Source of the DNA: Sulfurospirillum multivorans DSM 12446
GTDB taxonomy: Bacteria; Campylobacterota; Campylobacteria; Campylobacterales; Sulfurospirillaceae
Length of the DNA: 64,000 nucleotides
Assembly (NCBI RefSeq): GCF_000568815.1
Contig: NZ_CP007201.1
Span: 744,001 to 808,000 of the forward strand
Direction of reading: 5' to 3'
Below, one piece after another: positions 28,031 through 59,600 of the stretch. Numbering within the stretch: the first letter of the stretch is position 1; the number at the start of each line of letters is the position of its first letter. Below the pieces are notes generated by a model. It was not told where the DNA came from, did no database searches, and worked only from the letters and a program-made list of their open reading frames with translations. A program made the position numbers and the translations under genes.

Positions 28031-28049
28031 TTTTTCTAAATCTTCTATA

Positions 28050-28084
28050 GGAGTGCCACTTTTGAAGTGGCACTCCTTTTTTTT
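28050..28084 (+). terminator. Rho-independent terminator after serA
   Basis: GGAGTGCCACTT - TTG - AAGTGGCACTCC followed by eight T. A perfect 12-bp GC-containing stem, the strongest classical terminator in the window; it does not contain the TTTACATGTAAA repeat. Confidence 0.93.
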
Positions 28085-28267: not shown

Positions 28268-29611
28268 ATGCGAATCATGTTGCTTGTTCTACTTGCCTTT
28301 TGTCTCTGCTTTGCAGAGGAGGGACTCCGTTTAGACGATGCGATCCAAAAAGTCAAAGAGCATAATAGCGAGATTGTGATTGCAAAGTTTGATGAAAGAA
28401 TTAAAATGCTAGAACACCAAGCCGCATTGGGTGCAAACTACGGAAGCTTGGAGCTCTCGCAAGCAGCACTTCGCAGTAACGATGCACTGAACATCTTTGG
28501 CTATAAACTCCAATCACGTGAAGCCACGTTTTCGGACTTTGGCTTTAAGCAATTAGATATAAGTAATCCTAACTACAATGCAACGCCCAGTGATCTTAAC
28601 AACCCAAAAGATCGCAACCATTTTCAAACCAAAATAGAGTATACCTTACCGCTTTACACAGGTGGAAAAATTGAGCAGTATGGCAAAATCACCCAAGCCT
28701 TGCATGCCATGAGCACGCTAGATCGTGAGGCATTAATCCTTCAAAAAATTTATGAGCTCAAAAAGAGTTTTTTTGCCATATCGCTTTTGGATGCGCACCT
28801 TTACACCCTTCATATGATTGCTTCTAACACGGCAAAACTCGAAGCAAAAACAGCGGCGATGATGGAGGAAGGGTATGTTAAAAAAGTCGATCTTCTTGAA
28901 GTCCAGAGCAAACAAGCCGATGTCGAGCGACTGATCCATCAAGCCGAAGCCAATAGAGCGCTTTTATACGCCTTTGTCTCGTTCTTAGTGGATGAGCCTG
29001 TGACGCAAATTTCGAGAAATGATGAAGAGGCACCGACACTAATAAGCAGTGATGCGAACATTTTGAGCGACAATCTTGAGATCAAAAAAGCCGAGCAAGG
29101 CGTGGAGATCTCAAAGATGGGCATTGCATTGCAACAGAGTGCTTTTTTGCCGCAAGTGGGTGCATTTGCAAATTATGGCAGCAGTGATGATAAGCTGTTG
29201 AACGACTTCTCAAAAAACGATGCGTACACGGTCGGGCTTCAAGTGAAATGGAACCTTTTTAACGGTGGAAGCGATAACAATAATTTGGAAAAAGCGCGCG
29301 TCGAAAACCTCAAAGCTTCGCAACAACTGGTGTTAGCAAAAAAGCAAATTGCCTTACATGTAAAGCAAATTCAAACGCAGATTCAAAATGATGAGTATGA
29401 GATCAAAAGCCTTAAAAAAGAGGTGGAACTTTCCCATCTCATCTATGAAAACTATGCAGGAAGATACGAGCAAAAACTCGTCTCGATCAATGATGTTTTG
29501 ATGAAACAATCCGAAGAGCTCACCAAAGTGCTCAGGCTCAAAGAGGTGCAAAATGCACGTAATGAGAAGATCTTTGAGCTTCAAAAATTAGCCAGTAAGG
29601 AAGTGCAATGA
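28268..29611 (+). CDS. TolC-family outer-membrane efflux protein
   Basis: Outer-membrane channel partner of an efflux pump, 447 residues. Signal peptide MRIMLLVLLAFCLCFAE, then two OEP repeats rich in amphipathic helices (for example KIEYTLPLYTGGKIEQYG and the matching LQVKWNLFNGGSDNNNLEKA, the paired LY/LFNGG beta-to-alpha turns of TolC). Coiled-coil helices follow each. A repeat copy (29354) encodes ALHVKQ. It overlaps the adaptor gene by 4 bp. The AT-rich region upstream (28085-28267) holds likely promoter elements (GATAAT near 28229) but no clear operator. Confidence 0.9.
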   Translation: MRIMLLVLLAFCLCFAEEGLRLDDAIQKVKEHNSEIVIAKFDERIKMLEHQAALGANYGSLELSQAALRSNDALNIFGYKLQSREATFSDFGFKQLDISNPNYNATPSDLNNPKDRNHFQTKIEYTLPLYTGGKIEQYGKITQALHAMSTLDREALILQKIYELKKSFFAISLLDAHLYTLHMIASNTAKLEAKTAAMMEEGYVKKVDLLEVQSKQADVERLIHQAEANRALLYAFVSFLVDEPVTQISRNDEEAPTLISSDANILSDNLEIKKAEQGVEISKMGIALQQSAFLPQVGAFANYGSSDDKLLNDFSKNDAYTVGLQVKWNLFNGGSDNNNLEKARVENLKASQQLVLAKKQIALHVKQIQTQIQNDEYEIKSLKKEVELSHLIYENYAGRYEQKLVSINDVLMKQSEELTKVLRLKEVQNARNEKIFELQKLASKEVQ

Positions 29612-30416: not shown

Positions 30417-32000
30417 ATGAAGTACAAAGAGCGATACCTCGCAGGCTACTTAGCGCGCCTTTTTTTGAAAAACCCTTTGACGATGATTTTAGGGGTGAGT
30501 TTAATTGCCTTAGGCGTGATCGCACTCTCATTGATGCCCAGAGAAGAAGACCCTCAAATCTCGATCAGCGGTGGTGTGGTCATCGTCTCAATGCCAGGTG
30601 CTAGTGCCACAGAAATCGAGCAGATGATTGTCCGCCCACTCGAGAGGCGCATCAAAGAGATCAAAGGGGTGGAGCATATTTATGGGATTGCCAGTGATAA
30701 TGTGGGCATTGTGAACGTGATGTATTTTATCGGTGAAAACCGTGAGGCGTCGAACCTCAAACTCTACGATAAAGTGATGCAAAATATGGATCAACTGCCC
30801 CAAGGGGCAACAACGCCACTGGTGCGTCCTTTTGACATCGACATTGACATTCCTATTCTTTCCATCGCTTTTTACGCCAAAACGCCTCAAGGGGTGGATA
30901 ATGTGAGCCTTTACAAGCGTGTGGAAGCCTTCCGAAATTCTTTGGGCAATGTGGATAATGTTGCTAAAACTGAGATCAAAGGCGAGCACAAAGAGCAGTT
31001 TAACATCGAGATCGATCTTCCTAAACTCTCCGCCTATCACCTCTCTTTGGAGCAGATTGTAAGCTCTTTAAAATCACTCACGGCCTCTTCGCCAGAAGTA
31101 AAAAATAGAACGCACGAGGGAAAATTGATTGTTTTTGGTGTGAAAAATGCGTTAGAAAAAGTCGAAGATATTCAAAATCTGATTGTGGCAAATGTGGGTG
31201 GTTCTGTTGTCTATCTTAAAGACATTGCCGCCATTCATCTAGGAGATGACATCCAAAACACAAAGAGTGCGCAGATCAGCTACAAGCAGGGTGAGACCTT
31301 TACCTCTTTGCAAGATCAAGTCACGCTGAGTGTCTCCAAACTCAAAGGCTCAAACGCTGTTGTGATCGCACATGATGTGATCGCCCGTCTTGACGCTTCC
31401 AAAAGTGCTTTGGAGCGGGATGGCATTGGCTACATCGTGACGCGAAATTACGGTGAGCGTGCCAATGAAGCGGTGAATGAGTTGGTTTTTCACCTGCTGA
31501 TTTCCATCGTGATTATTGCCCTTTTGCTGATTTTTATTTTGGGTTGGAGGGAAGGATTGATCGTCACCCTCACGGTTCCTGCGATCTTGGCGATTACAAT
31601 TTTTATCGCTTACATGAGCGATCAAACGATAAACCGTATTACGCTTTTTGCTTTTTTGCTGAGCCTTGGGCTTTTGGTGGATGATGTCATCGTGGTGATT
31701 GAAAACATTCACCGCCATCTGCACGCGAAAGAGGCAAAAGGCAAAGAGATGGACGAACTACTTATCGAAGCGACTGATGAGATCGGGGCTCCCACGAACT
31801 TAGCAACGATTGCTATCATCTTAACGATGGTGCCGATGGCATTTGTGGGGCAGATGATGGGTGAGTTTATGAAGCCGATTCCACTCAATGTTCCTGTGGC
31901 GATGCTGTCATCGCTTTTGATCGCCTATATTTTTACGCCATTTTTAGCGCGAAAACTTCTTACAAAACCAACGAAAGGTGAGCGTCATGCAGAAATTTGA
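30417..32000 (+). CDS. RND efflux permease, N-terminal half
   Basis: A 527-residue half of an RND pump: TM1 (about 16-36), one porter domain (PREEDPQISISGGVVIVSMPGASA), then TM2-TM6 with LGLLVDDVIVVIENIHRH, which holds the proton-relay Asp pair. It ends LARKLLTKPTKGERHAEI, right after TM6 in the cytoplasmic linker between the two halves of an ordinary ~1,040-residue pump. The stop overlaps the start of the second half. Family: HAE-type drug/hydrophobe efflux by the VDD motif. Confidence 0.85.
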   Translation: MKYKERYLAGYLARLFLKNPLTMILGVSLIALGVIALSLMPREEDPQISISGGVVIVSMPGASATEIEQMIVRPLERRIKEIKGVEHIYGIASDNVGIVNVMYFIGENREASNLKLYDKVMQNMDQLPQGATTPLVRPFDIDIDIPILSIAFYAKTPQGVDNVSLYKRVEAFRNSLGNVDNVAKTEIKGEHKEQFNIEIDLPKLSAYHLSLEQIVSSLKSLTASSPEVKNRTHEGKLIVFGVKNALEKVEDIQNLIVANVGGSVVYLKDIAAIHLGDDIQNTKSAQISYKQGETFTSLQDQVTLSVSKLKGSNAVVIAHDVIARLDASKSALERDGIGYIVTRNYGERANEAVNELVFHLLISIVIIALLLIFILGWREGLIVTLTVPAILAITIFIAYMSDQTINRITLFAFLLSLGLLVDDVIVVIENIHRHLHAKEAKGKEMDELLIEATDEIGAPTNLATIAIILTMVPMAFVGQMMGEFMKPIPLNVPVAMLSSLLIAYIFTPFLARKLLTKPTKGERHAEI

Positions 32001-33642
32001 GTCGTTTGTCTATTCTCTGTTGGTGGAAGAGCGTAAGAAAAAGCTTGTGCTTCTTTTGACGTTTTTGGCGTTTGTGCTAGCGGTATTGATGTTTCCCACA
32101 AAAATTGTCTTAGCAAAGATGTTGCCGGGGAAAAGTACCAACACGTTTTCGATCTATGTGGATCTTCTCAGTGGAAGTTCGTATCAAGAGACCGATAGGG
32201 TCAATGCGTGTGTGGTCTCTATTTTGCAAAAAGAGAAAGAGGTTCAAAACATTGAAGTCTTCAACGGCATGGGCTCTCCTTTGGATTATGCAGGGCTGGT
32301 GAAAGGCTCTGGGCTTAAAAGTGGTGAGCAAAGCAGTGAAATCGTGGTCAATCTCAGTGGCATTCATGAACGAGATGAGCGCTCCTTTGCGATGGTGCAT
32401 CGTTTGCGACCTTTCATTCAGAAACAATGTGAAGGTTTAATCCCAAAAACCTCCATCAAGATGGTTGAACAGCCTGCAGGCCCTCCAACGATGGCGGCGG
32501 TAGTAGTTGAACTGTATGGAGAAAAAAGTGAGCCTTTAAACGCTTTAGCCGGAAGAATCAAGCAAATTTTAGCGCAAACCAAAGACCTTGTCGATGTGGA
32601 TATACTCTCCGATGAGGTGTATGAGAAGTACGCGCTTATCCTTGATAAAGAAAAAGTTACCCGCTCGCATCTTAGCATCGCGCAGATCAATGCGCTTTTG
32701 TACCTTGCCTTTGAGGGCTCCCATGTAGCCCATAAAAACAGTGAAAATTCCCCTGAACAAATTCCGCTTTATCTGGTACTTAGCTCGCCTTCCAAGTCGC
32801 TTCCGCATGCTTCCAAAGAGGAGCTCAGCGCAAAACTGAGTGAGCTTAAACTGCTGAATGCTCAAGGAATGATGGTGCCACTTTCCGAGCTGGTGCGTGT
32901 TGAGAAAGTCGCTTCGAGTCCAACGATTATGTCCAAGAACCTTCAAAAGATGGTTAGCATCGTAGCCGAAGCCGATCTGGTTTCGCAAGTCTATCCGCTT
33001 TTAGACGCACGCTCAAAAATCAAAGACACGCTTGCAGAGGAGTTTGAAATACGTAGAAGTCATCTGTTCGATCTCACGCTCAAAGATAAAAAGAGCGGTG
33101 ATGTGTATGAACTGGTTTGGGATGGCGAGATGAAAGTGACGATGGATACGTTTCGTGACCTTGGCGCTGCGTTTATCGCAGCACTTCTTTTGATCTTTTT
33201 GTTGATGGTTGTTTACTACAAAAGCTTTGCGCTCTCTGGCATTGTGCTCTTGGGGAGTTTTCTTTCGATCATTGGAGTGATCATCGGGCATTGGATCATG
33301 GATCTTTTTGCTTCAACGACGTTCTTCTTGACCGCAACATCACTGATTGGGTTTATTTCGCTGATGGGAATTAGCTCTCGAAATGCGCTTTTATTGATTG
33401 ATTTTGCGCAGACATTGATTAAGCAAGGCACTCCAAAAAAAGAGGCGATAGCAGAGGCGAGTGCGACAAGGGCCAAGCCGATTATGCTCACCGCAGCGGC
33501 GATTATCTTAGCCAGTACGCTTCTTGCGACGGATCCTATTTTTGGGGGATTGGGGGTTGCGTTGATTTTTGGAACGATAGCGGCAGTGATCGTATCGTTG
33601 ATCGTGGTTCCGGTTCTTATGGACAGTACGAAGGCACTTTAG
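31987..33642 (+). CDS. RND efflux permease, C-terminal half
   Basis: A 551-residue protein corresponding to TM7, the second porter domain and TM8-TM12. The ATG at 31987 has its own SD (AAAGG, 31974-31978) 8 bp upstream and overlaps the first half by 14 bp. TM10 region reads GISSRNALLLIDFAQ, so Arg replaces the Lys found in AcrB-like GLSAKNAIL. The two halves together match one full pump. The break lies exactly at the linker and has a good SD, which favours a true two-gene pump, but a single frameshift is not excluded. Confidence 0.85.
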   Translation: MQKFESFVYSLLVEERKKKLVLLLTFLAFVLAVLMFPTKIVLAKMLPGKSTNTFSIYVDLLSGSSYQETDRVNACVVSILQKEKEVQNIEVFNGMGSPLDYAGLVKGSGLKSGEQSSEIVVNLSGIHERDERSFAMVHRLRPFIQKQCEGLIPKTSIKMVEQPAGPPTMAAVVVELYGEKSEPLNALAGRIKQILAQTKDLVDVDILSDEVYEKYALILDKEKVTRSHLSIAQINALLYLAFEGSHVAHKNSENSPEQIPLYLVLSSPSKSLPHASKEELSAKLSELKLLNAQGMMVPLSELVRVEKVASSPTIMSKNLQKMVSIVAEADLVSQVYPLLDARSKIKDTLAEEFEIRRSHLFDLTLKDKKSGDVYELVWDGEMKVTMDTFRDLGAAFIAALLLIFLLMVVYYKSFALSGIVLLGSFLSIIGVIIGHWIMDLFASTTFFLTATSLIGFISLMGISSRNALLLIDFAQTLIKQGTPKKEAIAEASATRAKPIMLTAAAIILASTLLATDPIFGGLGVALIFGTIAAVIVSLIVVPVLMDSTKAL

Positions 33643-55082: not shown

Positions 55083-56483
55083 TTAGTTTACATGTAAAAG
55101 TTCAGCTTCATTCCAACCGCCGCCGAGGGCTTTAAAGAGTTCGGCTTGGTCGGTCAAAAGAGCTTGCTGGGTTGCGATGACACTAAGCGTGCTACTGAGC
55201 ACCCCTTTTTGTGCGTCTAAGACTTCAAGTTGGTTCGCAACGCCTTGATTGAAACGTTTGGTCGAGAGGTCTAACACTTTTTGGTAGGCTTTGAGCTCTT
55301 CTTGTTGAAAGACAAGGCGGCTTTGGGCTAGATTCTCTTTTGCAAGGGCGTCATGCACCTCTTTATACGCTTTTTTCACGGTTTGCTCGTAGCTTACTAA
55401 AGACGATTGCAAATCGGTTTCAGAGATGGAGACACGCTGTTTGATACGCCCAAAATCAAAAATCGGCACGCTAAGGCTTGGTCCCAAGCTCCAACGATTC
55501 GCACTGGATTTGAGGATGTTGCCTAGATCATCGCTTTGTTGACCGTAACTGCCTGTTAGGCTAATCGTCGGGAAATAAGCGGCTTTTTCAACCCCAATGA
55601 GCGCATTTTTACTTTTGAGATTCTCCAGTGACTCTTTAATATCAGGGCGATTTTCCATGAGTGTGGAAGGGACTCCTTGTGGAATGACCAATGCGCTAGG
55701 AAGAGTTGCTTCCAGTTTGGAATCCTCAAAAAGTGCTTGCGGGCTTTTGCCGACCAAGATAGCTAAAGCACTTTTTTGCAGCGCAAAACTCTCCATCAAG
55801 CTATTTTGAGAGGCTTTGGCATTGTTGTACTGTGCTAAAGCTTGGTTGGCTAAGACGTCGCTGATCGTGCCTGCTTTTTGCTGTTTGGAGCGAAACTCAT
55901 AATTCTCTTTATAGGCTTGGGCGGTTTGTTCTAACACACGCATTCGCGCTTGCAGGGAGGCTAGGTTAAAGTAAGCGCTGATCACATCGTGGATGAGGGT
56001 ATTGCGAACCGTCTCACGCGCGGCTTGCGTGGCTAAGTAGAGCGACCAGCTGGATTCACTCTGATTAGAAAGGCGTCCCCAAAAGTCGATCTCATAAGAG
56101 AGCGTGCCACTCATAGCAAAATCGGAATACTCCGCTCCCTTGTTTTTCGTTGAATACGCCTCATCGCTGGTTTTTTGACGCGTGTTACTGGCATTAGCAT
56201 TGAGCGTTGGGAGTTCATTAGCCGTGTTCAGTCCATACGTTTGGCGCGCTTTAAGCACTTTGAGCGCTGAAAGCTTTAGATCATCACTGCCAAGGAGTGC
56301 TTCATCCACGAGGGCATTGAGCTTGGCATCGTTAAATTGCTTCCACCACTCTTTGTTTACATGTAAAGCTTCTTGGGTACTTTTGGGTTGCTCCATTTGC
56401 GGAACATTAAGCTCAGGCTTGAGCGAACATCCACCCAAAAAAAGGATGGTGACAAAGGATAAAAGGGTAATGCTACGAGTCAT
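55083..56483 (-). CDS. Outer-membrane efflux lipoprotein (CmeC/NodT family)
   Basis: A 466-residue TolC-like channel. The lipoprotein signal ends LFLGGC (Cys at about 19), followed by SLKPELNVP, as in CmeC/OprM. Two OEP repeats follow (LSYEIDFWGRLSNQSESSW; LGPSLSVPIFDFGRIKQRV). Repeat copies fall at both ends: 56356 (EALHVNKEWW) and 55087 (the last residues ELLHVN). It overlaps the pump gene by 11 bp. Confidence 0.93.
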   Translation of the reverse strand: MTRSITLLSFVTILFLGGCSLKPELNVPQMEQPKSTQEALHVNKEWWKQFNDAKLNALVDEALLGSDDLKLSALKVLKARQTYGLNTANELPTLNANASNTRQKTSDEAYSTKNKGAEYSDFAMSGTLSYEIDFWGRLSNQSESSWSLYLATQAARETVRNTLIHDVISAYFNLASLQARMRVLEQTAQAYKENYEFRSKQQKAGTISDVLANQALAQYNNAKASQNSLMESFALQKSALAILVGKSPQALFEDSKLEATLPSALVIPQGVPSTLMENRPDIKESLENLKSKNALIGVEKAAYFPTISLTGSYGQQSDDLGNILKSSANRWSLGPSLSVPIFDFGRIKQRVSISETDLQSSLVSYEQTVKKAYKEVHDALAKENLAQSRLVFQQEELKAYQKVLDLSTKRFNQGVANQLEVLDAQKGVLSSTLSVIATQQALLTDQAELFKALGGGWNEAELLHVN

Positions 56484-57588
56484 GAACGACTCCTTTTTTG
56501 GTAAACTTTTCTTTCGTTTTCATAATGAGGTAGAAAAAGAGCGGTACAAAAAACGTACCGATCAACGTCAATGTAATCATACCACCCACAACTGTTGTTC
56601 CGATGATATGACGGCTATTGGCACCCGCTCCTGTACTGAGAGCCAGTGGCAAGGTTCCTGCGATAAACGCAAATGAGGTCATAACGATTGGTCGGAAACG
56701 AATGCGCGCCCCCTCAATCGTAGCATCGATCAAACTGTAGCCATCATGAAGCTTTTGCATCGCAAATTCCACCATCAAAATCGCGTTTTTGGACGAAAGC
56801 CCCACAAGTGTTACAAGCCCCACTTGGAAGTAGATGTCATTTTGCAAATCTCTAAAATAAACCGCGAGTGCCGCGCCCAAAAGTGCGAATGGAACGGCTA
56901 AAACGATTGCAAATGGAATCGTCCAGCTCTCATACAGTGCCGCCAAGATCAAGAAAACAAAGATGATCGCATAGATGAAAGCGGTATTGCCACTTTTTTC
57001 AAGCAATTTTTCTTGGTACGACGTACCTGACCAAGCGATGGTGTAGCCGTTTGGAAGCACACTTTTTGCGACCTCTTCGATGATGCGAAGCGCGTCACCT
57101 GAACTGTAGCCAGGACTTGGCTGACCTGAAATTTGCGCGGCTTGGAACATGTTGAACTTTTGAACAATCGAAGGGCCAACGATGCGCTTAATACTCGCAA
57201 GGGAGCTGATCGGGATGAGCCTTCCTTCGCTGGATTTGACAAAAACATCGTTGTAATTTTCCGTCCCTTCTCTAAAGGTGCTGTCACTTTGAACATTGAC
57301 ATGATACGTTCGCCCAAAGAGGTTAAAGTCGTTGGTGTAAGTATTGCCAAAAGTCGCTTGAATGGTAGTAAAGATGTCCGCAGTATCGACACCCAGCGAT
57401 TTCGCTTTTTCGGTGTCAACGTTGATGAGAAATTGCGGCACATTGGTGTTGATGGTCGAACGCATCGCAGAGAGCTCTTTTCGTTCCGCCGCTTTAGCGA
57501 GGATCTCTTTTACATAACCATCAAGCACTTGAATGTTCCCGCCCGTTCGATCTTGCACAAACATCTCAAAGCCACCTGTGGTACTCAT
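56473..57588 (-). CDS. RND efflux permease (CmeB/AcrB-like), C-terminal part after a frameshift
   Basis: 371 codons covering the rest of the second porter domain and TM8-TM12 (TIPFAIVLAVPFALLGA; GLSSKNAILMVEFAM with the relay Lys; PIVMTSFAFIAGTLPL). It starts MSTTGGFEMFVQDRTGG, which in AcrB-like pumps directly follows the PPPI segment. Its ATG overlaps the stop of the first part (ATGA), so some coupled translation is possible, but the break is in the middle of a porter subdomain. Confidence 0.88.
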   Translation of the reverse strand: MSTTGGFEMFVQDRTGGNIQVLDGYVKEILAKAAERKELSAMRSTINTNVPQFLINVDTEKAKSLGVDTADIFTTIQATFGNTYTNDFNLFGRTYHVNVQSDSTFREGTENYNDVFVKSSEGRLIPISSLASIKRIVGPSIVQKFNMFQAAQISGQPSPGYSSGDALRIIEEVAKSVLPNGYTIAWSGTSYQEKLLEKSGNTAFIYAIIFVFLILAALYESWTIPFAIVLAVPFALLGAALAVYFRDLQNDIYFQVGLVTLVGLSSKNAILMVEFAMQKLHDGYSLIDATIEGARIRFRPIVMTSFAFIAGTLPLALSTGAGANSRHIIGTTVVGGMITLTLIGTFFVPLFFYLIMKTKEKFTKKGVVHDS

Positions 57589-59600
57589 ACCATAATCGGT
57601 GGTGGTGTTACGGCGATCAAAAATGCCTCTTTATTTTGAGACAGACCACCCATCATTTTACCCGCAATCGCTTGCGAAGTTTGATCTGCGTTGGGTCTTT
57701 CATCCCAAGGACGAAGACGAATAAAGCTAATACCCGAATCGGTTTTATACGCATTGATAATAAAATCAAGCCCCGACATCGCTCCCACACGAATGACATC
57801 TGGGTTGGTAAAGGCAAAGTCACTGACTTGTTGGCTGACCTTTTGCGTTCGATCCAGTGAAGCACCTGGCATAAGGTTGTTGATGATAAGGATCATACCT
57901 TTGTCTTCGTTCGGAACCAAACCTGTAGGAATACGTGCGGTGATAAGGAAAATCGCAGCAATGAGGATACCAAAAATCGCAATGTTCATGACACCAAAGC
58001 GAATCGTTTTGCGCACTCCGGTTGAGAAAAGTTGCGTTCCCACTTCAAAAAAGTCGTTAAATTTTTGAATAAGCCAAAACGGTGCACTCTCATGTTTACG
58101 CAAAAGCAGGGCACAAAGCGCTGGCGTTAAGGTCAATGCCACGATACCTGAGATGGTAACGGAGATGATGACGGTCATCGCAAATTGCTTGTACATCGTA
58201 CCGCTAAAACCACCCATAAACGCAGCGGGAACGAAGACCGCACATAAAACCATCACGATGGCGATAACAGGACTGGTGATCTCTTTCATCGCCTTAATCG
58301 TCGCATCTTTGACACTGAGCTCTTCTTCTTCCCGCAAAATACGCTCAACGTTCTCAATGACGACAATCGCATCATCAACGACCAGACCAATGGCTAGGGT
58401 CAAACCAAAGAGGGTTAGCAGGTTGATCGAAAAACCCGCAATATAAAAGCCTGCAAAGGTTCCAATGATGGAGACAGGAATGGCAAGAACGGGAATAAAC
58501 GTCGCGCGCAAATTGCCCAAAAAGAGGTAGATAATACCCACAACAAGCGCAATAGAGAGGATCAACGTAAAGATCACTTCGTGGATCGATTCGCGTACGA
58601 AAATGGTCGGATCATACGCCGTGTCAATTTCAAGATCGCTCGGGAAGTTGGGTGAAATCTCCGCCAATTTTTGCTCTAAAAGATCAGAAACTTCCAGTGC
58701 ATTGGCGCCTGAGGCTAAGAAAATACCAATAGGGATCATCGGTTTGTTGTTAAAAATACCGCTAAAATAGTACGACTCAACGCCCAGTTCGACGTTGGCA
58801 ACATCTCCTAGTTTTAAAGAGGAGCCATCGCTGTTGGATTTGATGATGATTTTCTCAAATTCGCTGGCATTTTTAAGTCTGCCATCGGTTTTCACCGTGT
58901 AGGTATAGGTGGGTTGTTTTGCCATCGGCTCTTGTCCGATTTGACCTGCGGCGTACTGCTCATTTTGGCTTTTGATCGCATTGATCACTTCCGCGGTGGT
59001 TAGATCGTAGGTTGATAATTTATCAGGCTTGATCCAGACGCGAATTGCGTAGTTTTTATTTCCAAAAATGGTCACATCACCGATGCCGGGGATGCGCTTA
59101 AGATCATCCACGATGTTGACAAGCGCGTAATTGGAGATAAACGTTGTATCGTGCGAATTGTCTTTGGAGGTAAGTGTTAAAACTTTGAGGATGTCAGGAG
59201 AGCGCTCTCTGGTGGAAACACCTTGCTTGCGCACTGCTTCGGGGAGTTTGTTGGTGGCGATTTGCACACGGTTATTCACATCGACTTTGGCTTGTGCGAC
59301 ATCCGATCCAATTTGAAAATAGACGTTGATGCTTACATTACCACTGGGAGAGGCGGTGGTGGTCATGTAGAGCATATTGGGCACACCATTGATCTCCTCT
59401 TCCAAAGGTGCGGCCACCGTCGTTGCAATGGTTTGCGCATCCGCACCTGGATAGGTTGCAGAGACGATGATCTGCGGAGGTGCGATGCTAGGATACTCTT
59501 GAATAGGCAGCGATTTGATCGCAATGACACCCGCCAAAATAATCACAATCGACACAACGGTTGCAAAAATAGGGCGGTTGATAAAAAACTTCGAAAACAT
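57585..59600 (-). CDS. RND efflux permease (CmeB/AcrB-like), N-terminal part
   Basis: 671 codons: TM1 (IFATVVSIVIILAGVIAI), the first porter/docking domain (GADAQTIATTVAAPLEEEINGV), TM2-TM6 with LAIGLVVDDAIVVIENVERI, TM7 and the start of the second porter domain. It ends AVTPPPIMV-stop. Adding one G after IM would give PPPIMG-MSTTGGF in one frame of about 1,043 residues, the usual pump length. So it is a single-base loss, real or technical. Confidence 0.88.
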   Translation of the reverse strand: MFSKFFINRPIFATVVSIVIILAGVIAIKSLPIQEYPSIAPPQIIVSATYPGADAQTIATTVAAPLEEEINGVPNMLYMTTTASPSGNVSINVYFQIGSDVAQAKVDVNNRVQIATNKLPEAVRKQGVSTRERSPDILKVLTLTSKDNSHDTTFISNYALVNIVDDLKRIPGIGDVTIFGNKNYAIRVWIKPDKLSTYDLTTAEVINAIKSQNEQYAAGQIGQEPMAKQPTYTYTVKTDGRLKNASEFEKIIIKSNSDGSSLKLGDVANVELGVESYYFSGIFNNKPMIPIGIFLASGANALEVSDLLEQKLAEISPNFPSDLEIDTAYDPTIFVRESIHEVIFTLILSIALVVGIIYLFLGNLRATFIPVLAIPVSIIGTFAGFYIAGFSINLLTLFGLTLAIGLVVDDAIVVIENVERILREEEELSVKDATIKAMKEITSPVIAIVMVLCAVFVPAAFMGGFSGTMYKQFAMTVIISVTISGIVALTLTPALCALLLRKHESAPFWLIQKFNDFFEVGTQLFSTGVRKTIRFGVMNIAIFGILIAAIFLITARIPTGLVPNEDKGMILIINNLMPGASLDRTQKVSQQVSDFAFTNPDVIRVGAMSGLDFIINAYKTDSGISFIRLRPWDERPNADQTSQAIAGKMMGGLSQNKEAFLIAVTPPPIMV

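Follow-up and report, generated by a model that had tools for sequence, protein, structure and literature searches.

The DNA analysed here, below called the window, is a stretch of 64,000 nucleotides from Sulfurospirillum multivorans DSM 12446, whose genome of 3.18 Mb forms a single contig. In the window the genes serA, tolC, adaptor, RND permease N-half, RND permease C-half and efp follow one another in this order (Table 1), the names serA and efp being derived from sequence matches. As is characteristic of HAE-1 pumps, the genes for an adaptor and an outer-membrane channel stand in one operon with the permease, both directly upstream of it. The hairpin behind serA may set the pump operon apart. 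An initial annotation had described an RND pump encoded by two half-genes at 30417-33642, the second of which has its own ATG, a 14-bp overlap with the first and AAAGG 8 nt upstream; the sequence bears out each of these statements.

Table 1. Genes and features of the pump operon (positions in the window)
Feature	Position	Strand	Basis or remark
Terminator-like hairpin behind serA	28049..28077	+	13-pair stem, then T run; consensus match only
TolC-family outer-membrane channel gene, 447 aa	28268..29611	+	First in operon; PF02321 9.3e-33
Periplasmic adaptor (membrane-fusion) gene, 268 aa	29608..30414	+	TIGR01730 109 bits (cut-off 94.9); PF16576
RND permease N-half, 527 aa: TM1, periplasmic porter part, TM2-6	30417..32000	+	PF00873 1e-74, TM peaks, residues
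AAAGG, Shine-Dalgarno-like site of second gene, within first gene	31974..31978	+	8 nt 5' of ATG
14-bp overlap of N-half and C-half genes	31987..32000	+	Second gene in +1 frame
RND permease C-half, 551 aa from ATG: amphipathic helix I-alpha, TM7, periplasmic porter part, TM8-12	31987..33642	+	PF00873 5.4e-44

The window also contains 31 sites of the palindrome TTACATGTAA (between 6586 and 63682, e.g., at 29354, 30353, 33649, and 33680), where 0.04 would be expected. It is a highly iterated palindrome: CTTACATGTAA is present in 238+243 copies in the genome as compared with 0/1 for the reversed control. Among 80 fetched regions, each of the 10 from the same genus has 1-7 copies, 3 from the same family have one copy apiece, and the remaining 67 have none.

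The N-half covers positions 2-497 of the PF00873 profile with 252.3 bits and the C-half positions 525-1016 with 150.7 bits (cut-off 28), so that the homology to the whole profile expected of an HAE-1 permease is provided by the two halves together. By hydropathy the N-half has TM1-6, the last peaking at residues 492-510, and a further weak peak at 255-273, in the stretch from TM1 to TM2; the C-half has six TM, starting with one at 20-38. This is the HAE-1 arrangement of 12 TM in two repeats, each with a large loop behind its first helix (TM1 or TM7), here as 6+6. What is absent is the single chain of about 1000-1100 residues: two genes are found instead, in the window and at all 71 loci of the clade described below, and the computed masses of the window proteins are 58.1 kDa and 60.3 kDa. 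Among solved structures, the N-half matches chain 8f3e (AcrD by title) best by sequence, and the C-half MexK. Each half lies far under the cut-offs of the whole-protein models of NCBIfam. Thus TIGR00914, for HME pumps (CusA/CzcA), gives 133.8 and 58 bits as compared with a cut-off of 701.45, which is set for the whole protein. The best SecDF model of NCBIfam reaches 34.5 bits on the N-half (cut-off 721), and none is among the matches listed for the C-half. It should be noted, however, that PF02355 scores 23.6 on the N-half, slightly above its cut-off of 20.5, where PF00873 scores 252.3. By homology the pair is an AcrB-type, HAE-1-like RND permease and not a SecDF protein; the likeness to SecD/SecF that had been proposed for the two polypeptides holds for their organisation and does not extend to kinship.

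The junction aligns to residues 523/524 of AcrB, between TM6 and the cytoplasmic helix I-alpha. The second protein therefore opens with helix I-alpha, followed by TM7; it had been annotated as opening directly at TM7. AlphaFold models of each half alone (mean pLDDT 58.8 and 51.3) are too poor to use. The low-confidence C-half model has helices at 2-13 and 15-34 at its start, and its Foldseek matches to AcrB-type pumps (TM-scores ~0.3) were not relied on.

Eighty-six loci were read as DNA (the window itself, the 80 fetched regions, and five further loci taken from other searches), of which 71 are split and 15 fused. Two of the split loci are duplicates lying on contigs of equal length and having the same junctions (L047 = L089 and L051 = L097), which leaves 69 distinct ones. 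The split loci span 13 family codes of the order and two named plasmids; the identity of their C-halves to that of the window is 44-100%, that of the fused relatives 35-43%. The N-halves end shortly past TM6, usually with a tail that is basic and in many cases rich in His, and the C-halves generally open with an amphipathic stretch (e.g., MxxFExxIYxIL) ahead of TM7. Of the 71 split loci, 65 have a TolC match upstream on the same strand, 63 an adaptor match, and 60 have both. In addition, serA lies upstream in at least 29, efp downstream in at least 37, and both in at least 27 of the 71, these being lower bounds because of short regions. From this placement between serA and efp a housekeeping role for the pump might be guessed. 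Distant fused relatives likewise adjoin efp in three genomes (L105 in G034, L106 in G042, and L155 in G091), and L105 also stands behind serA; this site has therefore held both forms, perhaps by replacement of one by the other beside efp.

The proton relay of AcrB is formed by D407 and D408 in TM4 and K940 in TM10, with R971 and T978 also involved, and lies where the two TM repeats, which move as rigid bodies joined by I-alpha, face each other (according to the text available of PMC8277102). The corresponding residues in the window are Asp422 and Asp423 of the N-half and Arg465, Arg495, and Thr502 of the C-half (D, D, R, R, T). In all 71 split loci the N-half has Asp at D407 and the C-half Arg, Arg, and Thr at 940, 971, and 978. 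Neither half alone thus has the relay. That Arg replaces the TM10 Lys of AcrB, as the initial annotation had remarked, is correct. It marks neither novelty nor the split, since Arg is found at the K940 position also in 15 of 15 fused relatives and in 5 of 5 from other phyla or classes. The D408 position is more variable: it is Ala in 54, Asp in 16 (the window included), and Ser in 1 of the split loci; among the fused relatives 6 have Asp and 9 have Ser. Ala at this position in most split relatives would run against a relay of the AcrB type, although the window keeps its Asp; no compensating acidic residue was obvious in the TM columns of the Ala-408 loci that were inspected.

The division of the relay bears on the question whether the halves function independently of each other, say as two distinct homo-oligomers or with one half turned into a regulator. 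Each half retains a complete six-TM repeat, and in some bacteria SecD and SecF are separate six-TM chains. Those of T. thermophilus are heterodimeric though fused elsewhere (PMC8277102). However, in every one of the 71 loci the relay pair of D407 and Arg940 has one member on each chain, at what is in AcrB the interface of the two repeats (PMC8277102). In addition, the halves are adjacent in all 71 loci read and have diverged in step: N-half and C-half distances correlate with r 0.955 over 68 loci (L138, L047, and L051 dropped), the permutation maximum being 0.193. Separate functions are therefore very improbable. It is likely, because the relay residues are divided between the halves, that these assemble jointly into one working pump.

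The junctions vary from locus to locus. Overlaps of 4 bp (23 loci), 1 bp (21), 14 bp (10), 8 bp (6), 0 bp (3), -9 bp (3), -1 bp (2), -8 bp (1), and 38 bp (1) were recorded for the 71 split loci. At L138 the script had mis-set the start to a late GTG; its ATG, with AAAGGAG before it, gives an overlap of 11. Relative to the first gene, the second is in frame +2 in 45, +1 in 20, and 0 in 6 of the 71. Its start codon, as chosen by the script, is ATG in 62, GTG in 8 (including the mis-set one of L138), and TTG in 1. Ahead of this codon, an SD-like site (AAGG, AGGA, GGAG, GAGG, or longer, at a distance of 3-13 nt) is present in 69 of 70 loci with L138 dropped, as compared with a mean of 22.8 and a maximum of 34 in shuffled sequences. 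Strong cores (AAGGA or AGGAG) are present in 41 of the 70 (shuffled: 9.1, maximum 19), and the one split locus lacking an SD-like site is the copy on the Sulfuricurvum plasmid. In the PLSDB table derived from RefSeq, the Sulfurovum and Sulfuricurvum plasmid pairs are given as two CDS each, both named permease subunit. The locus tags of the half-genes at L056 and L057 are out of series with those of their neighbours, as if the annotation had once been different and was later revised.

Short overlaps would also be compatible with programmed frameshifting or stop-codon readthrough that yields a fused, full-length pump, the more so as the frames are in phase in 6 of the 71 loci and the stop stands directly before the start in L134, L143, and L145. 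Against this, none of the three relative frames is missing (45, 20, and 6 of 71), the overlaps range from +38 to -9, and the second gene has retained a start codon of its own, with an SD-like site in 69 of 70; no common slippery site could serve every locus. Mixed frames and overlaps thus argue strongly against a programmed event, which is very unlikely.

How far the split is conserved was followed from the genus to the phylum. Within the genus a match to the C-half was found in 24 of 24 genomes, as a full-length frame of 553-566 aa in 22 and in pieces in 2 (G015 and G019), and a match to the N-half likewise in 24 of 24, with frames of 529-596 aa in 23. In the draft genome G020 (L180; 86% completeness) the N-half frame is interrupted near TM4 and the C-half is open, which reflects either decay or an assembly error. 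No frame of fused length was among the matches in the 24 genomes. The comparison of related genomes for one or two ORFs that had been suggested at the outset thus gave both halves throughout the genus and the split at 71 loci, and a continuous gene in sister strains, which would have spoken for an error, was not encountered within the genus.

In the family, 42 of 44 genomes have a match at E<=1e-40 (none in G035 and G037); G034 and G042 have only a fused relative of 1076-1077 aa with 38-39% identity. At E<=1e-60 a match is present in 276 of the 398 genomes sampled from the order and absent from the other 122, and in the phylum sample 163 of 397 match, all of them Campylobacterales; among the matches listed, which are the best-ranked ones, all are half-size or fragments in both samples. 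A further 80 matching genomes of the order, chosen so as to favour low scorers not listed before, comprised 40 with a split pump, 29 with a more distant fused relative, 1 in which a contig end truncates a fused gene, and 10 with fragments too short to judge. Two apparent exceptions proved not to be such. G233 seemed to have a fused gene in the split clade (an open frame of 1084 aa), but its DNA has a TAG directly before the ATG and it is counted among the 40 split ones on this evidence; G237 (632 aa) seemed to be split in the fused clade and has a fused gene cut by the contig end. One split and one fused copy occur together in G047, and the second copies L178 (G173) and L179 (G059) are split at the same place.

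In 13 genomes of the order 57 RND permeases were found in single frames, one of them being the fused relative in G058, together with 14 split pairs in 12 genomes, every pair at a C-half match of this pump family. One further RND gene is in pieces (G080). Within this sample, and apart from the gene in G080, splitting is peculiar to this pump family.

Both halves are under purifying selection. In seven of eight comparisons of the window with relatives the dN/dS (NG86) was 0.028-0.073 in both halves, and in one it was not computable; dS was below 1 only for L088 and L089, where dN/dS is 0.052-0.063. A tree built from 81 rows groups the 56 split ones into a single clade (SH-aLRT 100), which requires one change. 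The tree is a quick one without mixture model or bootstrap, from which 16 of 97 rows were dropped and in which the split clade is nested by virtue of the outgroup root, with warnings for long rows (including L057_split and L166_FUSED) and for long outgroup branches that meet. An unannotated Persicobacter record and a second Polaromonas record (one gene, 1093 aa) were left out. The fused relatives beside the split clade come from the same order, from Alpha-, Beta-, and Gammaproteobacteria, Cyanobacteria, and Bacteroidota, and are single genes encoding 1060-1119 aa. Since one split clade stands among one-gene relatives, a single ancient fission in the Campylobacterales would be the simplest reading.

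A frameshift pseudogene or a sequencing error in a normally single gene, to which the one-nucleotide offset of the two frames, as after an indel, and another RND gene of the window broken that way might point, is practically ruled out by the genus, family, and order searches, in view of the same split in all 71 loci of one clade and the low dN/dS of both halves. The initial annotation had leaned the same way on the ground that a chance frameshift would hardly strike precisely at the linker and bring an SD site as well; the view stands by virtue of conservation, but one argument for it is weak, because chance may also produce a new start at an ATG, as the other broken gene demonstrates. The case for the split thus rests on its conservation and not on the look of one genome. 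In that other gene (56473-59600, minus strand) the break lies at PF00873 position 662/663 and leaves frames of 671 and 371 aa with a 4-bp overlap at an ATG. Among 9 other genomes of the genus that were inspected, 8 have its relative (86-99% identity) as a single frame of 1022-1051 aa, counting one (G008) with a TAA within its match, and G005 has a frame of 785 aa; the gene in the window is thus a pseudogene or contains a sequence error.

The preferred reading, for which we estimate a probability of almost nine in ten (about 0.88), combines an ancient fission, coupled translation, and assembly of the halves into a tripartite pump. One AcrB/HAE-1-like RND permease gene would have been cut once, between TM6 and the cytoplasmic helix I-alpha. 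In the common operon the second gene would be translated in a coupled fashion, either by the ribosome that has ended the first gene or by one recruited by the internal SD-like site. TM repeat 1 with its porter part, contributed by the N-half, and I-alpha and TM repeat 2 with the second porter part, contributed by the C-half, would then form a 12-TM protomer, three of which together with adaptor and TolC would make up a proton-driven tripartite pump. That the halves reassemble is inferred from the distribution of the relay over both chains and from the natural cut at the spot at which MexB is reported to have been halved with retention of function; preservation of the same cut in many relatives of one order also suggests that they do so.

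A natural and long-lived two-chain pump cut at I-alpha would show that evolution can dispense with the covalent link between the repeats. It would provide a system in which the purpose of this link, the assembly of the halves, and the sufficiency of one TM4 Asp can be tested. Such pairs may also be mistaken for frameshifted pseudogenes, which should be thought of in genome annotation. A more far-reaching idea, which we consider unlikely, is that many members of the Campylobacterales use an obligate two-subunit RND pump in which the rocking repeats are untethered and the free ends allow a mechanism or control absent from one-chain pumps. Such a mechanism could involve a larger disengagement of the repeats, a swapping of halves among paralogous pairs where a genome has two, or a proton relay altered to rely on one TM4 Asp.

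RND drug pumps are described as single chains with two TM repeats that rock against each other (in the text available of PMC8277102), and no description of a natural split HAE-1 pump was found by title or abstract in searches of the open-licence literature. Two candidates were discarded: for AreGHI of Aliarcobacter the authors give three structural components, and the word "split" is absent from the main text in the version available (PMC8300790), and AmeD is a 12-TM HAE3 chain of 787 aa (according to the accessible part of PMC6394551).

With the HAE-1 permeases AcrB, AcrD, MexB, MexK, and TriC the split pump shares the PF00873 domain, the order of TM and periplasmic parts, and the operon with adaptor and TolC; it differs from them in being made of two polypeptides and in having Arg in place of Lys940. 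SecD and SecF also belong to the RND superfamily and are two six-TM chains in some bacteria, but they are a protein-export helper, whereas the split pump lies in an efflux operon. In MdtBC each chain is a whole 12-TM permease. This RND pump has two different permease chains, which form a heterotrimer (PMC8277102, as far as available). A naturally split polytopic membrane protein with a fission near the root of its clade is the split-Doa10 of Kluyveromyces (PMC3464245, as far as available), which is, however, unrelated and eukaryotic. A further parallel is MexB, which is cited as functional when its chain is divided at the N-terminal end of I-alpha and expressed as two halves (Eda, Yoneyama, and Nakae, 2003, as reported in the accessible text of PMC4359379, eLife 2014), a helix that moves with repeat 2 according to the same paper. 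The split pump matches this artificial split: the cut is at the same spot and the helix stays with the second half. The halved MexB is a laboratory construct, whereas the split described here is natural and spread over an order.
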